Assembly (NCBI GenBank): GCA_947623935.1
Contig: CANQIE010000007.1
Coordinates: 1-41,562, forward strand
Reading direction: 5' to 3'
From: an uncultured Bacilli bacterium
GTDB lineage: Bacteria; Bacillota_I; Bacilli_A; RF39; UBA660
DNA length: 41,562 nt
The position numbers were made by a program, and so were the translations under genes. Below the pieces are notes generated by a model. The model saw only the letters and a list, made by a program, of their open reading frames with translations. It searched no databases and had not been told where the DNA came from. Positions 1-9,116 of the stretch are shown here, in pieces; position 1 is the stretch's first letter, and each line of letters starts with the position of its first letter.

Positions 1-159
1 GGCTAATTTATTTAAATATATTAAAAATATATCTAAATCTATTTAATTTTATCTATTGACTTTTACCAGATGTTCTTATTATTTATACTTTCCATTATAG
101 TTTATTTTTATTATAAAAACACAAAAGTTAACTAAAAAGAAACTATCTATTCTATTTTT

Positions 160-187
160 ATTATAAAACTACCCCCCCCCACGTCAA
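160..187 (-). promoter_or_regulatory. Promoter with G9 homopolymer in its spacer
   Basis: On the minus strand TTGACG (182-187) and TATAAT (160-165) are separated by 16 nt, and nine of those are a G run (172-180). An A-rich stretch lies just upstream of the -35. A homopolymer in the -35/-10 spacer is the classic arrangement for promoter phase variation by slipped-strand mispairing. One added G would give the optimal 17-nt spacer. The target gene is outside the window. Confidence 0.55.
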
Positions 188-295
188 CTTTTTGTTTACT
201 TTTTTTTCACAAAAAAAGCTTATAATATCTCGTCTCTTTGCTTATAAAAAGATTTCCTTTACCGTGTATTTTTCTCTATATTTAACGATCAAAAG

Positions 296-331
296 AAAAA
301 AGATATACATAAAATGGTGAATATCTCTTTT
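296..331 (-). terminator. Probable terminator of the 158-aa gene
   Basis: On the minus strand a stem AGATAT/ATATCT (321-326 with 301-306), extended by A-rich/T-rich arms with one mismatch, runs into a T-rich tract immediately after the stop of the gene at 333-809. It is a weak, AT-only stem. Confidence 0.4.
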
Positions 332-332
332 A

Positions 333-809
333 TTAATAATGATAATTTTTTTGTTCCTTTATTTTATCTATGTAAAGATCAATTACCGAAGGAACATCTC
401 CTTCATTATTGCGCAATGTCTTAGAATCGAAAATTCCTTGATCATAAACAATATCGTAATCAATACGAATATCTTGATAATCTTTTAAAACTTTTTTAAG
501 TCCTAAGAAGGCCTCTTGCTGTTTTGAAGTTATTTCTTCGGGCATCATAAATGTACCCCTTTTTATTTTATTGGAAGTATCTAAGAAAACAATATCCCCT
601 AATCGTGTGAACACATAGGCTGCTGTTTGAATAGGATGAGTATATTTTAATTGTTGAAGATTGGGATCATCTTTATAATGGTCTTTTAAAAAACCAATTA
701 ACGTTACAATGTGTTGCTCCTCTTCTTCTGTGGTAAGAAATGTACATTTGCCTTCTAAATCTTTTCCATCCATTGGATTTTTTCCATGAACAATAATCAT
801 CTTTAGCAT
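333..809 (-). CDS. Hypothetical protein (158 aa)
   Basis: Unrecognised soluble protein of 158 residues, mixed helix and strand, without a signal peptide, membrane segment or catalytic motif that I can name. The start ATG at 809 follows an AGGAAG ribosome site that overlaps the end of the upstream 141-aa gene (its stop is at 815-817), so the two are translationally close and probably co-transcribed. The N-terminus (MIIVHGKNP) resembles the first beta strand of a small alpha/beta fold, but this is not enough for a family call. Confidence 0.6.
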   Translation of the reverse strand: MLKMIIVHGKNPMDGKDLEGKCTFLTTEEEEQHIVTLIGFLKDHYKDDPNLQQLKYTHPIQTAAYVFTRLGDIVFLDTSNKIKRGTFMMPEEITSKQQEAFLGLKKVLKDYQDIRIDYDIVYDQGIFDSKTLRNNEGDVPSVIDLYIDKIKEQKNYHY

Positions 810-814
810 AGCAC

Positions 815-1240
815 TTACTTCCTAACCAATGTCTTATTATTAGATGTGATAATGCTTCTTTCTTTTAAAGCGTTATATAGGGCCTTAATAGAGTCGCTTT
901 CATACCCATATTCCCAAATAAATCTTTTTTCACTAAGACTACGCTCTTTATTGTAAATAGCATAGCCTTCGTTATCTACATGTGCTATGATAAGTGGTTT
1001 TGCTCCATTTTGAGGAGTTTCTAGAATAACCTGTTCTTTTCCAAAAGCACTTCCTAAATAATCTACAATATAAGTAGTTCCAAAATCTTTCTTTAAAGTT
1101 TCTTTATGCTCTTCTAAATATCTAGTAAGTTCTTCCAAAGTATCAAAAAAAGCCGTATTGAGAATACCACTATAGCCATAAAGTCTTTTTATAGATGGTG
1201 GATTATTTAAAATAGCTTCTTTTGTAATATGCTTATTCAT
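815..1240 (-). CDS. Hypothetical protein (141 aa)
   Basis: Unrecognised cytoplasmic protein. I place the start at ATG 1240 (MNKHITKEAI), 5-6 nt after GTAGGTGATG. The longer frame beginning at 1288 would read through the terminator hairpin at 1271-1295 and lacks a ribosome site. The protein is charged, with no membrane segment; one region reads KPLIIAHVDNEGYAIYN. It lies 5 nt upstream of the 158-aa gene and probably shares its transcript. No function can be assigned. Confidence 0.6.
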   Translation of the reverse strand: MNKHITKEAILNNPPSIKRLYGYSGILNTAFFDTLEELTRYLEEHKETLKKDFGTTYIVDYLGSAFGKEQVILETPQNGAKPLIIAHVDNEGYAIYNKERSLSEKRFIWEYGYESDSIKALYNALKERSIITSNNKTLVRK

Positions 1241-1270
1241 AAATACATCACCTACTTTTATTATAAACGA

Positions 1271-1295
1271 AAAAATCATGTTCGTCATGATTTTT
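1271..1295 (-). terminator. Terminator after the 91-aa gene
   Basis: A perfect 10-bp inverted repeat, AAAAATCATG (1271-1280) and CATGATTTTT (1286-1295) around a 5-nt loop, sits directly after the stop of the minus-strand gene at 1296. The T-tract makes it a convincing intrinsic terminator. It also separates that gene from the next pair. Confidence 0.75.
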
Positions 1296-1571
1296 CTAAA
1301 GATTCTTTGTGCGCAAGGAATCTAACTTTAAAATAGAACGGCGATAGATTTCTTGTTCAATACTAGACATGTATTTCTTTTGCGATTGAAACATCTTTTT
1401 TAATAGGCTAGAAGCTTCGTTAATTTGTCCACAAGAAGCATGGGAAAGATCTTTTTCTAAGGCATGATATTTCTCTTGATATTCAATAGATCCTGTTTCC
1501 ATAATCCATTCTAGTTGAGCCATTTGCATAATTTTTCGTTTTAATAGTTCTCCCCATTCCTCTTTATACAC
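1296..1571 (-). CDS. Small helical hypothetical protein (91 aa)
   Basis: A 91-residue, strongly charged protein that should be almost wholly alpha-helical and may form a coiled coil. It has no membrane segment. The start is GTG at 1571, preceded by AGGAAGG. Terminators on both sides (1271-1295 and 1637-1658) suggest it is a single-gene transcript. No family recognised. Confidence 0.55.
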   Translation of the reverse strand: MYKEEWGELLKRKIMQMAQLEWIMETGSIEYQEKYHALEKDLSHASCGQINEASSLLKKMFQSQKKYMSSIEQEIYRRSILKLDSLRTKNL

Positions 1572-1636
1572 ATCTATCCTTCCTTTCTATTTTCTCTAGA
1601 ATAGCATGAAAGTTTGTCTTAATTTGTCGAAAAAAA

Positions 1637-1658
1637 AGAATTCTCTTAAAAGAATTCT
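1637..1658 (-). terminator. Terminator of the amidase gene
   Basis: Minus-strand hairpin AGAATTC (8-nt loop) GAATTCT followed by an uninterrupted run of eight T. It begins at the stop codon of the amidase gene (1657). Confidence 0.7.
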
Positions 1659-2826
1659 AAACAGGAATATAGGTCTTTCCCAAATACTCTACATACGTTT
1701 TAATTTTATCTTCACTCAATTTCTTCCAGTTATCTTTTTTATAGTACCAGTCGTAATCCAAACTATTACTTAAATAGCTTCCTTCATATAGAGGATTTTT
1801 AACATGATAAAGACTATATGGAATACGAATGACCGCATAATAATCATTAAATTTATAGACTTCGTCTTCTTCTTTAGAGAAAATACCACCTTCTTCACTT
1901 CGAGCATAGAAACGCAAATGGTTTTCTCTTACGACATAATCCTCTTCCCATAACGAAGCGACCTTTTTCTCATTCGAAATATCCACATTTTCCCCTGGAA
2001 CAATGATTTCCCAGCCCGAATAACTTTTGACTACACTGCTGTTGTGGTGATTGCTATAAGATACTCTAGATACGACCCCATAGTACCCCATCGCATAGGC
2101 TCTTCTTCTTACATTAGACCAAGATTCATCGCCCATCATAATGCCATAACTATTATCTTCACGAATTAGTTTCACCTTTAAGCCATGTTCCTCATAACGC
2201 TTCTTTTCATAAAGAGCCTGTTCTAGATTCAACTTTTCTTCATCCATTTCTTTATTGTAAGAACCCGCATCTTCTCCACCATGTCCGGGATCAATTAAAA
2301 TATCGTATTCATACGCAAAATCTTCAATATCTAGTTTAACACGATCATTAGAGTAATCAATCGTTACTAGTTTATCTTTAATATGAGCTCTAGCTATTTT
2401 TTCTAATAAAGGTCTCGTATCCGTTAGTTTTTCTTCTTTACCGGAATTTATTTTTAATTCGTAACTTCCATTTTCAAGATCTCCTAATAGAATGGTTCCT
2501 TCATACGTCTTAGCCCCTTTGGAAACACCTTCAAAACTTTTACATTCTTCTAAAGGAATAGAGCATATCTTTAATTCAAAAGTACCATTGTTAGAAGCCA
2601 TCGTACCATTAATAAAGATTCCTTCATCTGTCCACTCCATCGTATTCACAAAATTCGTGGTAGGACTTAAATCTTCCTCCCATTCAGGCATGATAACAGC
2701 AGGTACCTCTTCTTCTTTACCACTAAAACTAAAAGATTTCACCACAAAATAAACAATTCCTATAAAAAGAACTGCTACTAAAATAATACGAAACCAATTT
2801 AGTTTTCTTTTTCGTCTTTTGGCCAT
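1657..2826 (-). CDS. Membrane-anchored N-acetylmuramoyl-L-alanine amidase (Amidase_3)
   Basis: Cleaves the amide bond between MurNAc and L-Ala in peptidoglycan. A basic N-terminus and one membrane segment (about residues 12-30) would hold it on the outside of the cell. Residues 40-165 form a spacer domain I cannot name. The C-terminal catalytic domain carries the Amidase_3 zinc site: DPGHGG (His182), the Glu of DEEKLNL (about 197) and His260/261 in YSNHHNSS, followed by the usual Glu before a final S-N motif (YEGSYLSN). Start ATG at 2826 after AGGAGAGGG; an extended -10 (TGCTATACT) lies upstream. It has its own terminator. Cell-wall turnover or daughter-cell separation is inferred. Confidence 0.88.
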   Translation of the reverse strand: MAKRRKRKLNWFRIILVAVLFIGIVYFVVKSFSFSGKEEEVPAVIMPEWEEDLSPTTNFVNTMEWTDEGIFINGTMASNNGTFELKICSIPLEECKSFEGVSKGAKTYEGTILLGDLENGSYELKINSGKEEKLTDTRPLLEKIARAHIKDKLVTIDYSNDRVKLDIEDFAYEYDILIDPGHGGEDAGSYNKEMDEEKLNLEQALYEKKRYEEHGLKVKLIREDNSYGIMMGDESWSNVRRRAYAMGYYGVVSRVSYSNHHNSSVVKSYSGWEIIVPGENVDISNEKKVASLWEEDYVVRENHLRFYARSEEGGIFSKEEDEVYKFNDYYAVIRIPYSLYHVKNPLYEGSYLSNSLDYDWYYKKDNWKKLSEDKIKTYVEYLGKTYIPV

Positions 2827-2966: not shown

Positions 2967-3593
2967 TTGAAAAAAGTTATAACGGGCTTAGTAGTTCTTT
3001 TTTTAATGATTGTTTTAGCATCTTTGTTCTTTCTTGATTTAAACAAAAAACAAGATAATAATTTAGAAAAAGTACGTTTAGCCGAAGTAGCCCATACCAT
3101 TTTCTATGCACCGCAATATGCGGCTTTAAGTCAAGGTTTCTTCGAAGACGAAGGACTTGATATTGAACTTACCTTAGCATCAGGCGCCGATAAAGTAACA
3201 GCAGCCGTATTATCAGGAGACGTTGATATTGGTTTTTGTGGAAGTGAAGCAACGATTTATGTCTATAATGGAGGAGAAAAAGATTATCTTAAAACATTTG
3301 CTCAACTTACCCAAAGAGATGGTACTTTCTTAGTATCTAGAGAAAAAATAGATAACTTTACTTTAGAGGATTTAAAAGGAAAAACCATTATTGGTGGTAG
3401 ACAAGGTGGAATGCCAGAAATGACCTTTGAATGGGCACTCCGTCAAAATGGAATTGATCCAAAAAGCGATGTCGATATCGATACTTCTGTAGCTTTTGCT
3501 GCCATGAGTGGAGCCTTTATTGGAGGTCAAGGAGACTTTGTTACTTTGTTCGAACCTAATGCAAGAAAAAGAAGTCGCTTTAGGAAAAAATAA
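2967..3593 (+). pseudogene. ABC importer substrate-binding protein, 5' part, split by element
   Basis: First 197 codons (to 3557) of an SsuA/ThiY/NMT1-type periplasmic-binding protein; the last 11 residues before the stop at 3591-3593 are encoded by element DNA. TTG start after AGGAGG. The N-terminus is a membrane anchor without a lipobox Cys. The family's opening lobe is clear: HTIFYAPQYAALSQGFFEDE, then GADKVTAAVLSGDVDIGF and GKTIIGG. The reading frame breaks in the conserved Phe-Glu-Pro motif at 3549-3557. It continues at 13502 as Thr-Ala, giving a reconstructed protein of 329 residues, normal for the family. The ligand (sulfonate, thiamine precursor, riboflavin or other) cannot be told. 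As it stands the product lacks the whole second half and is probably non-functional until the element excises. Confidence 0.9.
3552..3564 (+). repeat. attL of the integrative element
   Basis: Core GAACCTA (3552-3558) followed by the element half-site TAATGCAA (3557-3564). To the left lies host coding sequence ending in Phe-Glu-Pro. Confidence 0.8.
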
Positions 3594-3597
3594 TAAG

Positions 3598-5307
3598 TTA
3601 TTGCCCATAATAACATTTTACAAGATAGGTAACTTTATATCTTTTGGTTCCTTTGGTGTCATAGCCTCTTTTAAATTCATAAGTATGTTCTAAAATAGGT
3701 TCTTGATTATCTTTATTTTCATCCCCTTTATAAGACAAAAAGACTTTTAACTCCATCCTTTTTTTATCATTATCCATATGGGATACTATCATGCGATCTA
3801 GAAATAAACTGATAAATTTATCGAAAATAGTTTTAGATTGAACTTTTTGCTTTAAGATATTAACAAGACCCCTAGTTAAATTCCCATTCTTTTTTAACTC
3901 TTCTTGTTCTTTTTTTAATCGCCTTAAATCTTTTTCAAGTCGTCTTATTTTTTCATTAAATTGATTATTTCTTTCACAAAATTCTAAATTAGAAATACTT
4001 CCTTGTAAACTGAGTTCCAGTAATTTATCTTTTTTAGCTTTTACCTGATTTATTTCTCTCTCTATTTCTTGTATTCCGTCATCAATTTCTGTATCTTCTT
4101 CTAAAGGTCGATAGTAATTCATGAGTATTCGTGCTACTTCATTCACATCGATGTGGAATTTTGATATTAAATCGTTAAAAATAACATCTAATTCACTTTC
4201 TCTAATGTTAGGCGAATCACAAAAAGATTTTCCTTTTCTTAAATAAAGAGAACAAACCCAAGTAATATCTTTTTTGTTTTTTCTAAAAACTCTTCGATGA
4301 AAAACAGTATGATGTGTTGCACAATAGATTTTAGCACTGTACAAGTAACGGTTTTGGTAAATATGTTTATTCTCTCTCCGAAGCATAAAGTCTTTTTTTC
4401 TTTCCATTAAACGATGGTTAGCTCTATTCCACAAAACATCTTCCACAATTGGAGGAATTCTTTTTTTATCTTCGTACATAATCCAATCATCTTTAGTAAA
4501 ATGTTTTATTTTCTTCGTCATATAATCAATAGTTTCACTTTTTTTTGCACAATAATATCCTTTGTATTTAGGATTTTCAATCATTCTAGAAATGGTAGAA
4601 ATGCACCACTTTTTATTTTGTCCTGTTCTTATCCCTTCCCTATTTAAAATCTTTGAAATTTGCGAAAGAGATAATTTCTCTATGGCATAAAGCTCAAAGA
4701 TTTTTCTAACCACTTTAGCTTCTTCATCTATAATATAGAGAGTATTTGTATTTTTATCTTTTTTATAACCATACAAGAGGTCATTTCCTAAAATTTCACC
4801 TCGTTCGATAGCTCTATTCATACCAAACTTAACCCGCTCCGACAAACGTCTTACTTCATCCTGCGCCATGGAAGCCATAATCGTAAGTCTTAGTTCTGAA
4901 TCGGGCATAGCGGTATTAATGTTATCGTTTACAAATAGGACCGCAACCCCATAAGATAATAATTCTCTTGTATATCTGATACTATCAAGCGTATTTCTTG
5001 AAAATCTTGAAATTTCTTTCGTCACAATCAAATCAAATTTACCACGTCTTGCATCTTCAATCATTTTCATAAAATGATCTCTTTTAATATCGCTTGTTCC
5101 GGTTATACCATCATCTACATACCCGGGTACATAGATCCAATTAGGATTTTCTTTGATATATTGTTCAAAGTGCTCCACCTGGTTTTGCAGTGACTTTTTC
5201 TGTTCTAAGTGATCTGTAGATACTCTTGCATAATCGGTGACTCTAAGTTTGATACTAGTAAGAGGTATCCCTTTGTTTAACTCATTTCGAATGGTATATA
5301 AATCCAA
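3598..5307 (-). CDS. Large serine recombinase (integrase/excisionase of the element)
   Basis: Site-specific DNA recombinase of 569 residues, normal for large serine integrases. N-terminal resolvase catalytic domain with the nucleophile Ser30 in YARVSTD, followed by the conserved GKFDLIVTKEISRFSRN and MASMAQDEVRRLSERV segments. Then a recombinase domain, a Cys/His zinc ribbon (about residues 330-370) and a long coiled coil (about 430-500), the part that controls integration versus excision in this family. TTG start at 5307, 8 nt after AGAGGAG, which directly follows the stop of the 57-aa ORF, so the two are coupled. It ends 40 nt from attL, the usual place for an integrase. Confident call; the coiled coil and zinc domain exclude a simple resolvase. 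Confidence 0.95.
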   Translation of the reverse strand: MDLYTIRNELNKGIPLTSIKLRVTDYARVSTDHLEQKKSLQNQVEHFEQYIKENPNWIYVPGYVDDGITGTSDIKRDHFMKMIEDARRGKFDLIVTKEISRFSRNTLDSIRYTRELLSYGVAVLFVNDNINTAMPDSELRLTIMASMAQDEVRRLSERVKFGMNRAIERGEILGNDLLYGYKKDKNTNTLYIIDEEAKVVRKIFELYAIEKLSLSQISKILNREGIRTGQNKKWCISTISRMIENPKYKGYYCAKKSETIDYMTKKIKHFTKDDWIMYEDKKRIPPIVEDVLWNRANHRLMERKKDFMLRRENKHIYQNRYLYSAKIYCATHHTVFHRRVFRKNKKDITWVCSLYLRKGKSFCDSPNIRESELDVIFNDLISKFHIDVNEVARILMNYYRPLEEDTEIDDGIQEIEREINQVKAKKDKLLELSLQGSISNLEFCERNNQFNEKIRRLEKDLRRLKKEQEELKKNGNLTRGLVNILKQKVQSKTIFDKFISLFLDRMIVSHMDNDKKRMELKVFLSYKGDENKDNQEPILEHTYEFKRGYDTKGTKRYKVTYLVKCYYGQ

Positions 5308-5585: not shown

Positions 5586-8500
5586 TTACAAGATAATAAT
5601 GACTAAGGCCACGATAGCTAAGATACCAATAACGATATACTTCATAATTTCTGAATCAAAGATAGAACTTTGATTACTATTAGATGAATTAGAAGTTTCA
5701 TTAAATGTAGTCTCTTCTTTTTCTTCGTCTTTATTTTCTTCCTTGTTTTCTTCTACTTCAGAATCCTTTTCTTCATTTATCTCTTCCTTATTAGAAGTAT
5801 TTGGTTTTTCTTCAGTACTTGGTTTCGTAGAAGCACTAGGTTTTGAAGTACTAGGATTGGTAGTAGAAGGTTTTGGTGTTGTAGTTGGTTTTACCGTTTC
5901 ACTAGGAGTTGGCTTTGGCATTTCGCTTGGTGCTGGTTCCGGTGTCTCACTAGGCGTTGGTGTTGGTTCTTCACTAGGAGTTGGATCTGGTGTTTCGCTT
6001 GGCGTTGGTTTCGGAGTCTCACTAGGAGTAGGTTCCGGTGTTTCGCTTGGCGTAGGAACTGGTTCTTCTTTGATCTTTGTAGCATCTTCATATAAGTTAA
6101 TCATAGCCGCAGAGGCATAAGAACCGGAAGTTTCTTTTCCTACTAGTTTGATATATTGAGCTTCAACGCCTTCTTCAAAGACAATCTCTTTCGCATTCTT
6201 TGTCATATCCCAAACAACATCGGTGGCAACTTCTGTCCAGGTCTCTCCATCCATACTGGTAAGAACAACTGCTTTGGTAATTTTACCATTGTTGGCATCT
6301 TGTCTTGGAACATATTGTAATTTGGTTAAAGTAATCGGTTTATCTACTTTAATCGTAATATATTTATCTTTATCAGAGCCATCCCATTTGGTATGCCATA
6401 TCGTATTAAGGTTTCCATCGATAGCATGGCTTACTTCATTTTGATGTCCTGGTTCATCGGTTGAAAAATCTTCCACAGTAAGTCTTGAAACCGGTACATA
6501 TCTTTGTGTTTTATCAACCGTATCTTCCGTATATTTTAAAGTAACCGCTTCACTTGCAAGTTTTGTTCCAGTATATCCGATACGAACCTCAACGGTTTTA
6601 TCTCCAGTTAAATCAGGAGCACTCTTTTTAAATGAAGTCCAGTTTTCTTCTCCATCAAGTCTCCACTCCATGGTATCAGTTGCACCAATTACTTTGTTTT
6701 CTAAATCGTTATTGTAAACCGTTGGTGCTACATTGGATTTCGTAATATCGATGTCATAAATCGCTTCCATGGCTCCTACAATACGCACTAAGATATCGGT
6801 TTCAACATTGATAATTCTAAGCTCTTTATCACTTAACTGTTTCTTCATTTCGTTGACTCTTTGCCAGTTTTGTCCACCATCTAGACTATATTCCCAAACA
6901 ACTCCGTTTCCTTCGTAACGTTCATCTAAAACAATTTGTCCTGCGTTTTCTCCGTCGAACGAGAACGAAGCAATTTCGGTATCATTTTTCTGTAATAAGT
7001 AATTCGCTACTTGTTGAGTAGGTCTAGCTTGCAATACATCTTGATCCGTCGCTTTAGAAGCAAGGGTTAAAGCATTATTTAATAAGTTCAAGTAAATGGC
7101 ATGATCGGCACCCGATAAACGTTTTTCAATCAAACGCATCAAATCGTGCATTGGAAGTGGATAATAGGTTAAAGTTGTAGTAATTCGTTTAGCTAAGTTT
7201 AAGAAATCCGTACTGGTTGAATTATCATCACCTAGATAGGTATTAACAAGTCCTAACCAAGCATCGAAGTTGATGTTTTGTACTTTTAAGGCATCTTCAT
7301 AGATTTGTTTTAACTTGGTACTATTATTTTTATAAGCTCCTGCCTTCATGATAATCTTTTCTGACGCTACATAGTTGTTATAATCATTCAAAGCAGCTTG
7401 AGCTAGTAATACATAACTACCTGGGAAATCTCCTACGTAAGAACCGGTTCCCCAACCATTCGGCATACGAACACTTAATTTTTCGGTCTTACCGGTTTGT
7501 CCCCATCCAGAAACATCGTTATATAGAGTCCAAATTTTGTTACCTTGACTATCTAAATTCATATAGATATAAGCAGCATGTCCTGGTTGAGATACTACAC
7601 TAGATGGTACTCCATAGGTACCTATAATATTAGATCCCGTCTTGGAAATAGCTCCACAAACTCCACCTTCTTCAAATACAATCCATAATTTTGGACGGTT
7701 TTTAATACCATATTGAATTTGGTAAGTTTTACCATTGGCATCCGTATAGGTATTTAAGAAGTGATATGGATTTGGACTTAATTCTTTACGAACTGTGTTA
7801 TTCCATTTTTCTCTTTGCGCTAAATCGTAGTATTGATCTTTATTGTAATCGTATCCAAAACGATACGTTAAGAACTTATACGGGTCTGTACTATTATTAA
7901 GAGTAGCAAATTCATTTAACCATAAAATCTCTTCATCATCGATGATGTTATTCATGACGAAGCGCATTTCTTCGACGGAAATATGTTCAAAGATTTCATT
8001 TCTTAATAATCCTTCATCGTGTAATTTTTTATAAATCGCGTAACGGTTAATAGCATTCGATCCATTGGTATCGTTTACATCTTCTGGAGCTCCTGTTACC
8101 CATAATCCAACATTCGCTGAATGGGTTAAGGATAGGCTAATCATCATTTTTAAATAAAGATCTCCATATTTAGGATCATCTAAATCCGCTTTATACTTCT
8201 CGTATAATTCATTTAAGATATTAATAGAAGTACCATAACTTCCGTCTGGTGTTCCTCCTAATAAGTATTCTTCCAAAATTTTCTGATCGTTCATTAACCA
8301 AGAAATGGTATCATGATATTCATTACTATAAGCAAGATAAGCTTGTAAAACATCATAACCTACGTTGTTAACAAAGGTTCTTTTTAATAAGGTATGTTCG
8401 CAAGTTTCTCCCTTACTTTCACATTCTCTAATAAGATTATCATAATAAGAAACAGGTTGTACTAAATCATCTTTCGTTGTTTTTTCTTGATAATCTTCTT

Positions 8501-9116
8501 TAATTAATTTAGCATTGGCATAAACGGCATCATCATACCAGTGACTATACCAACTATTACCATTTTCATATGCATAAAGTCTTAAATAGTTAGCATCACA
8601 AATATCCACTTTAGCAAATATCGCGTCATCCCAACCTTTTAAAGTTCCTGTTTTAAATTCTTCTTTCCATTCTTTACCATCTTGTGAGGTATAAATTTTA
8701 AAACTAACTCCACCATTGTAATAGGTTTCCGTTCTAGTAGCATCAACTCCAAGATAAGCTGTAAAGAAGTCATAATCTAAATCACTTACATCATAAACTA
8801 GATTTGAAGTAGCCCATGCAGAAATACCTTTAATAAAGGTTGTTCTTTCTCCATCAATATTAACGGATATAAGTTTACTATCGTTATTTTTATCTAGGCG
8901 AACATAATACCCATTTTTTACATAGGATTCATCTAGATATTTAACATCTGATAAATAAACCATCTCTTCCGTATTGTAAGATAAATAAGAAGTAGATAGT
9001 ACTGTGTTAGAATATGCTTTTGCTTCACTTACGATGAATAAAGTGATCGTTCCCATGACAAAAAGAACGAACGATAATATCATTCCAGTAAATTTACAAG
9101 ACTTTTTATTTTTCAT
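5586..9116 (-). CDS. Giant surface protein: NPCBM, transglutaminase-like, discoidin domains, wall-spanning repeats
   Basis: 1176 residues. Signal peptide 1-34 (after EAKA). Residues about 50-205 read as an NPCBM carbohydrate-binding module. Residues about 220-700 are a largely helical region with a transglutaminase/papain-like core: Cys487 in GGVCGAISKTG, His513 in QPGHAAYIYMN and Asn533/Asp534 in LYNDVSGWG. Beta-sandwich segments follow (about 710-865), then a discoidin/F5-8C module (about 870-1010), TPSETPEP-type repeats (about 1021-1075), an acidic stretch and a C-terminal membrane segment (1157-1176) with no LPXTG and no charged tail after it. Likely a surface enzyme that binds and cuts or crosslinks glycoproteins; the activity is inferred from fold and triad. 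Start after GAGGGGGAACAGGTT. Element cargo. Confidence 0.85.
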   Translation of the reverse strand: MKNKKSCKFTGMILSFVLFVMGTITLFIVSEAKAYSNTVLSTSYLSYNTEEMVYLSDVKYLDESYVKNGYYVRLDKNNDSKLISVNIDGERTTFIKGISAWATSNLVYDVSDLDYDFFTAYLGVDATRTETYYNGGVSFKIYTSQDGKEWKEEFKTGTLKGWDDAIFAKVDICDANYLRLYAYENGNSWYSHWYDDAVYANAKLIKEDYQEKTTKDDLVQPVSYYDNLIRECESKGETCEHTLLKRTFVNNVGYDVLQAYLAYSNEYHDTISWLMNDQKILEEYLLGGTPDGSYGTSINILNELYEKYKADLDDPKYGDLYLKMMISLSLTHSANVGLWVTGAPEDVNDTNGSNAINRYAIYKKLHDEGLLRNEIFEHISVEEMRFVMNNIIDDEEILWLNEFATLNNSTDPYKFLTYRFGYDYNKDQYYDLAQREKWNNTVRKELSPNPYHFLNTYTDANGKTYQIQYGIKNRPKLWIVFEEGGVCGAISKTGSNIIGTYGVPSSVVSQPGHAAYIYMNLDSQGNKIWTLYNDVSGWGQTGKTEKLSVRMPNGWGTGSYVGDFPGSYVLLAQAALNDYNNYVASEKIIMKAGAYKNNSTKLKQIYEDALKVQNINFDAWLGLVNTYLGDDNSTSTDFLNLAKRITTTLTYYPLPMHDLMRLIEKRLSGADHAIYLNLLNNALTLASKATDQDVLQARPTQQVANYLLQKNDTEIASFSFDGENAGQIVLDERYEGNGVVWEYSLDGGQNWQRVNEMKKQLSDKELRIINVETDILVRIVGAMEAIYDIDITKSNVAPTVYNNDLENKVIGATDTMEWRLDGEENWTSFKKSAPDLTGDKTVEVRIGYTGTKLASEAVTLKYTEDTVDKTQRYVPVSRLTVEDFSTDEPGHQNEVSHAIDGNLNTIWHTKWDGSDKDKYITIKVDKPITLTKLQYVPRQDANNGKITKAVVLTSMDGETWTEVATDVVWDMTKNAKEIVFEEGVEAQYIKLVGKETSGSYASAAMINLYEDATKIKEEPVPTPSETPEPTPSETPKPTPSETPDPTPSEEPTPTPSETPEPAPSEMPKPTPSETVKPTTTPKPSTTNPSTSKPSASTKPSTEEKPNTSNKEEINEEKDSEVEENKEENKDEEKEETTFNETSNSSNSNQSSIFDSEIMKYIVIGILAIVALVIIIL
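5891..6060 (-). repeat. In-gene tandem repeat encoding Thr-Pro-Ser-Glu linkers
   Basis: Roughly eight to nine imperfect copies of an 18-24-bp unit coding for TPSETPEP-like octapeptides and shorter variants. They form an extended Pro-rich stalk between the discoidin domain and the membrane anchor. Such tracts commonly vary in copy number between strains. Confidence 0.75.

Follow-up and report, generated by a model that had tools for sequence, protein, structure and literature searches.

The window, by which we mean the whole stretch of 41,562 nt analysed here, has at its left end a promoter that is directed out of it. It belongs to the genome of an uncultured gut Bacilli species (G000), a 1.15-Mb draft in a 93% complete assembly, which was compared with that of a sister species (G002). 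One genome per species was used, and the data are assembled consensus only, without reads. On the minus strand the order of elements is AAAGTAAACAAAAAG-TTGACG-T-GGGGGGGGG-TAGTTT-TATAAT, with the core at positions 187–160. The parts of the locus are as follows.

188–206, minus strand: conserved AT-rich box upstream of the −35 (family consensus AAAAATTAACAAAAAG, window copy AAAAAAAAGTAAACAAAAA)
160–187, minus strand: sigma-70-type core promoter, TTGACG-16 nt-TATAAT, pointing leftwards (from a motif scan and 38 copies in the same genome)
187–182, minus strand: −35 hexamer TTGACG, read from the window sequence
181, minus strand: T, the first spacer base, before the G tract
172–180, minus strand: G9 homopolymer within the −35/−10 spacer, a presumed slippage switch (length differs among paralogues; G8 at the sister-species locus)
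171–166, minus strand: TAGTTT, the end of the spacer, 5′ of the −10
165–160, minus strand: −10 hexamer TATAAT, read from the window sequence
76–159, minus strand: long-form 5′ leader, common to about a dozen other copies
115–110 and 99–94, minus strand: two further TATAAT boxes in the leader
1–75, minus strand: end of a repeated element (GAACATCTGGTAAAAGTCAATAG...), 3′ of the leader and reaching the contig edge (same end at the contig ends of C1, C13 and C31)

Every point of the original prediction that concerned the window sequence was correct: TTGACG, a 16-nt spacer containing G9, and TATAAT are present exactly at 160–187 on the minus strand, and the promoter is directed off the left edge. 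Matching 11 of 12 consensus bases, it is the best among nine promoter-like sites in window positions 1–2000, and its G9 is the sole run of seven or more G or C in the 41.5-kb window. The exact 28-mer, sought with up to three mismatches, occurs once in the window and in none of 100 shuffles, and the number of runs of at least nine G or nine C expected in a whole genome is 0.05–0.4 (first-order Markov model, estimated from the window). A chance promoter or a chance homopolymer is excluded by the shuffles, by this expectation and by the genome-wide scan for G8 described below. An invertible promoter was also ruled out, as suitable inverted repeats are absent from window positions 1–900, in which the only pairs are two AT-rich, chance-like ones. 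That the AT-rich box at 188–206 is an UP element or a regulator site is inferred only, and the extra TATAAT boxes in the long leader might start transcription independently.

Elsewhere in the window, a gene for an NMT1-type substrate-binding protein (2967–3593, plus strand) seems to be truncated where it meets the gene of a large serine recombinase (3598–5307, minus strand; domains Resolvase, Recombinase and zinc ribbon), as though 2967–5307 marked the start of an integrated element. Beyond it lies the gene for a putative surface protein of 1,176 residues (5586–9116, minus strand). Its carbohydrate-binding domains are of the NPCBM and F5/8 type C kinds, and close to the C-terminus it has a long repeat stalk rich in PTPSE.

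The target gene of the window promoter is not visible, because the leader runs into the repeat at position 75 and the contig then ends. The stretch at window 74–110 is repeated in nine other contigs of the same genome (C15, C9, C47, C24, C3, C37, C14, C5 and C2), and the repeat end beyond it has been seen at four contig ends only, those of the window contig and of C1, C13 and C31. In three cases this repeat end comes after the leader of a poly-G promoter and in the fourth after another site with a TATAAT, each time immediately 3′ of the promoter. The repeat could be a mobile element with leaders as its targets, and at position 75 it may separate the window promoter from its gene.

Surface proteins had been named as typical for the gene to the left. 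This fits the sister species, in which the promoter at the syntenic site (contig C125) has G8 and a spacer of 15 nt, against G9 and 16 nt here, and precedes a gene beginning MKDRNKILFGFVMLLMVVGIIGFSYALFTTKVEKKGALNIVAG, a member of the surface-protein family described below; the window's own gene lies off the contig and could not be identified. Genome G003 lacks the cassette at the corresponding locus, where a pcrA-type helicase gene comes immediately after the flanking gene, so cassette-gene units have been inserted or lost as wholes. This pcrA-type gene was absent from the stretches examined in the attempt to identify the gene left of the window.

A dispersed cassette and the genes behind it

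The core pattern with TTGACG alone occurs about 20 times in the 1.15-Mb genome, and 38 cassettes are obtained if the spacer and the sixth base of the −35 are allowed to vary; the sister species has at least 24. All cassettes of the window's genome have in common the upstream box, the −35, the G tract, TAGTTT/TATAAT and a purine-rich leader. The box is common to nearly all copies, and the DNA further upstream differs from copy to copy. A scan of the genome for tracts of at least eight G returned 43 distinct sites, 37 of which are cassettes (the 38th cassette has G6 only). Of the other six sites, that at C21:6426 is unrelated and five make up a further set of poly-G promoters. This second, smaller set, of the type TTGACT-G8/9-TTAACTTTATTATAAT, stands before five exported proteins of 270–290 residues (loci L175, L177, L026 and L078; contigs C1, twice, C2:23045, C36 and C39).

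Several copies lie at contig ends, as would be seen if the cassette were an assembly or sequencing artefact. Repeats should produce contig ends anyway, however, and the cassette is found inside many contigs, in the separately assembled sister genome and in two further metagenome-assembled genomes (MAGs), which makes such an artefact barely credible and, for the array, refutes it. The named GTDB matches of the cassette are rabbit-gut MAGs labelled uncultured Bacilli bacterium (bins Lapin-032 and Lapin-019) and one Spirochaetaceae hit with G15, and a scan of IMG/VR found no further copies.

Nearly always where the contig continues, the cassette is followed after 40–120 nt by a gene for a protein of 580–790 residues. 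These proteins have an N-terminal hydrophobic segment (for example MEEKRTKKELIAVCLLVLSLVLITVGTTFAFFQYSRQG) and fall into three subfamilies, the MKIKGRQ type of which has bacterial surface Ig-like domains. The family has a common C-terminal frame, SETxGWYGD...PWFxRGGxYxxGxxxGVFxFxxxxGxxxxxxSFRLVLAP, with highly variable positions within it. When family genes were found through this variable region instead, 26 of the 28 with a visible 5′ end proved to have a poly-G promoter; the pattern match gave 25, and L020 was added as the 26th, having been missed because its tract begins TGAGG. The two family genes without such a promoter are L164 (C4:20655) and L166, the second gene of C35. At L012 (C4:37185) the cassette stands before a 426-residue protein outside the family (MGFIKAFAGALGG...), which is not a target of the retroelement described below.

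Nearly all cassette-linked genes, and the gene at the syntenic locus of the sister species, have features of exported proteins. These features of the cassette family agree with the expectation that surface proteins are the targets, display at the cell surface being inferred from sequence; a ligand-binding role is likewise inferred. A structure model of one family protein had a mean pLDDT of 46, and its C-terminal part was of low confidence and unusable. A profile search of solved structures returned no match, and for a C-type lectin/FGE-like fold in the part that carries the variable region there were only weak FGE-sulfatase matches below the cut-off. By eye only, the T(F/S)AFF-type N-terminus resembles that of SipW/TasA-type exported proteins; no NCBIfam or Pfam match to that export class was found.

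The near-identity of the promoters could instead stem from whole gene units that were recently duplicated and subject to gene conversion, with the G9 tract carried along as a passenger without a regulatory role. The conserved block does extend from the box into the coding sequence, and units must move or exchange, given that syntenic loci can hold different subfamilies in the two species (L036/L085) and that the window locus is empty in G003. An unconstrained G9 should decay in AT-rich DNA, yet 37 of the 38 copies keep at least eight G. Unrelated genera also have the same design independently, and the smaller exported proteins of this genome use a separate poly-G promoter (C1, C2, C36 and C39). 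We therefore consider the passenger explanation quite improbable.

Tract length within the array and in other genera

The G tract ranges from G6 to G10 among the paralogous promoters of the window's genome and from G8 to G10 in the sister species. Spacers in the 38 cassettes are of 16 nt in 32 copies (84%), 17 nt in three, and 15, 14 and 10 nt in one each, the last through a deletion; in 24 cassettes of the sister species they are of 16 nt in 17, 15 nt in five, and 14 and 17 nt in one each. Changes in the length of the core are concentrated in the G tract, and the A5 run beside it is almost constant. As judged by the upstream flanks (83–95% identity), 14 promoters of one species have a syntenic counterpart in the other, and spacer length differs in three of these pairs, including that of the window promoter.

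Poly-G spacer promoters with other flanks were detected in 21 of 290 genomes of the same family, and in 17 of 150 genera in a high-quality tally. In several such genomes they are multi-copy, with a modal spacer of 16 nt in five and of 18–20 nt in others. Tracts in other genera range from G7 to G12 and have unrelated flanks, and in other genomes most of the targets encode exported proteins and some are glycan genes. At L054, L197 and L202 the promoters precede ORFs that, named by eye, are glycosyltransferase-like, UDP-galactopyranose-mutase-like and nucleotidyltransferase-like. The same design is found in a Spirochaetaceae MAG, where the tract is G15 and the protein that follows is exported-looking and of 240 residues (L187:4245).

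These data bear on whether the cassette is a coordinately regulated promoter, in which a regulator or sigma factor recognises the G tract and the AT-rich box as a fixed site and the length of the tract does not change. Conservation does extend to each of the upstream box, −35, G9 and −10, and a spacer of 16 nt is strongly modal in the genus and modal in several others; at 84%, its share might be more uniform than a freely switching set would give. A fixed site is, however, at odds with the variation in tract length among paralogues and between syntenic loci, and with the unrelated flanks and G7–G12 tracts of other genera. The G tract also sits in the spacer, where length rather than sequence should matter. 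A fixed regulatory site remains possible but is unlikely. The phase-variable promoter that had been proposed is, by comparison, well supported, because tract length varies among copies and the sister species has G8 at the syntenic locus; there are no read-level or expression data.

A diversity-generating retroelement and the proposed reading

In the sister species, a contig of 3.1 kb has a template repeat, a MutS_I-like ORF, Avd and a reverse transcriptase of 353 residues, with profile matches above the cut-off for RVT_1 and bAvd/DivGenRetAVD. The window's genome has a template-repeat region in C2 that is 92% identical to that of the sister species and is followed by unrelated genes. Ungapped alignment of variable regions with the template gave mismatches at 61% of adenines and 17–23% at other bases in the window's genome (figures from the better-conserved variable regions), and at 55% of adenines and 9–24% at other bases in the sister species. 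On this adenine bias, together with the machinery in the sister species, the C-termini of the family are assigned as variable regions of a diversity-generating retroelement (DGR). No reverse transcriptase (PF00078/RVT_1) was found in the 93% complete assembly, in which C18 has a remnant of the accessory ORF; either the lineage has lost its DGR, therefore, or an assembly gap hides it. Many of its variable regions have drifted.

We read these observations as a genome-wide array of phase-variable slippage promoters over a family of DGR-diversified surface proteins, and put the probability of this reading at about three in four. Slipped-strand mispairing in the G tract would shift the −35/−10 distance by single bases, so that G8, G9 and G10 would give spacers of 15, 16 and 17 nt. 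With 16 nt as the common state, a gain of one base would lead to the canonical 17 nt and a loss to a poor 15 nt, although the on-state in this organism is not known. Each locus would then move between weak, intermediate and strong transcription independently of the others, and from many diversified binding proteins the array would make a stochastic choice for display. About 40 large proteins would make up the switched set, each with a hydrophobic segment at the N-terminus, domains that are Ig-like or extended, and a C-terminal region predicted to be DGR-diversified at template adenines. That slippage causes the changes in length, and that spacing affects expression, are inferences, and switching in this organism has not been shown.

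The cell probably varies its surface in two ways together, by switching on and off at random and by targeted hypermutation. A broader proposal, to which we lean by only a little, is of surface diversification in two layers, in which about 40 independent slippage switches choose among about 40 retroelement-diversified binding proteins in a genome of 1.15 Mb, and in which this family of uncultured gut Bacilli has taken up poly-G spacer promoters on repeated occasions. If the switching is real, it would join a combinatorial choice of display to targeted hypermutation, and would be relevant to the ways in which reduced, uncultured Bacilli of the gut deal with phages, hosts or changing glycans.

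Relation to known systems

The best-known poly-G spacer promoters are those of pathogens, at one locus each, and a DGR usually serves one target or a few. At Neisseria meningitidis porA, a homopolymeric G tract (9–11) lies in the −35/−10 spacer, as here, and the target is a surface protein, as is inferred here; surface expression is high with 11 G, about twofold lower with 10 G and about 13-fold lower with 9 G (PMC3639595). A graded response to spacing like that of porA is expected here, where the effect was not measured, and porA is one locus, whereas the present array comprises about 38 paralogous loci in an unrelated low-GC Gram-positive lineage (PMC3639595). Treponema pallidum has several poly-G tracts in or near the promoters of surface genes (tp0126 and tpr), and that of tp0126, which works best at a spacer of 17 nt, lies between the −35 and −10 as in the cassette (PMC7864442). 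The T. pallidum tracts vary in position and context from gene to gene, in contrast to the single dispersed cassette described here (PMC7864442).

The Vlp system of Mycoplasma hyorhinis resembles the present one in having a surface family with a homopolymeric promoter tract for each gene in a small, low-GC genome (PMC10502178). Its tract is of A, in the promoter of every vlp gene, rather than of G inside the spacer, and its products are size-variable lipoproteins rather than DGR-diversified proteins, which are present here in far larger copy number (PMC10502178). The DGR of Treponema denticola is similar in that one template repeat serves several scattered targets with adenine-biased variable regions and in that targets without a reverse transcriptase are left over; it has two to seven targets, against tens here, and, as far as the source was consulted, no poly-G promoter array is described for them (PMC4891356).

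A literature search for DGRs together with phase variation, which did not cover subscription papers, returned no paper with this combination. The parts are already known, and the combination of a poly-G promoter array with a DGR-diversified family looks new: a commensal gut lineage whose genome is very small here has both poly-G promoters and DGR targets in large numbers, and has them together.
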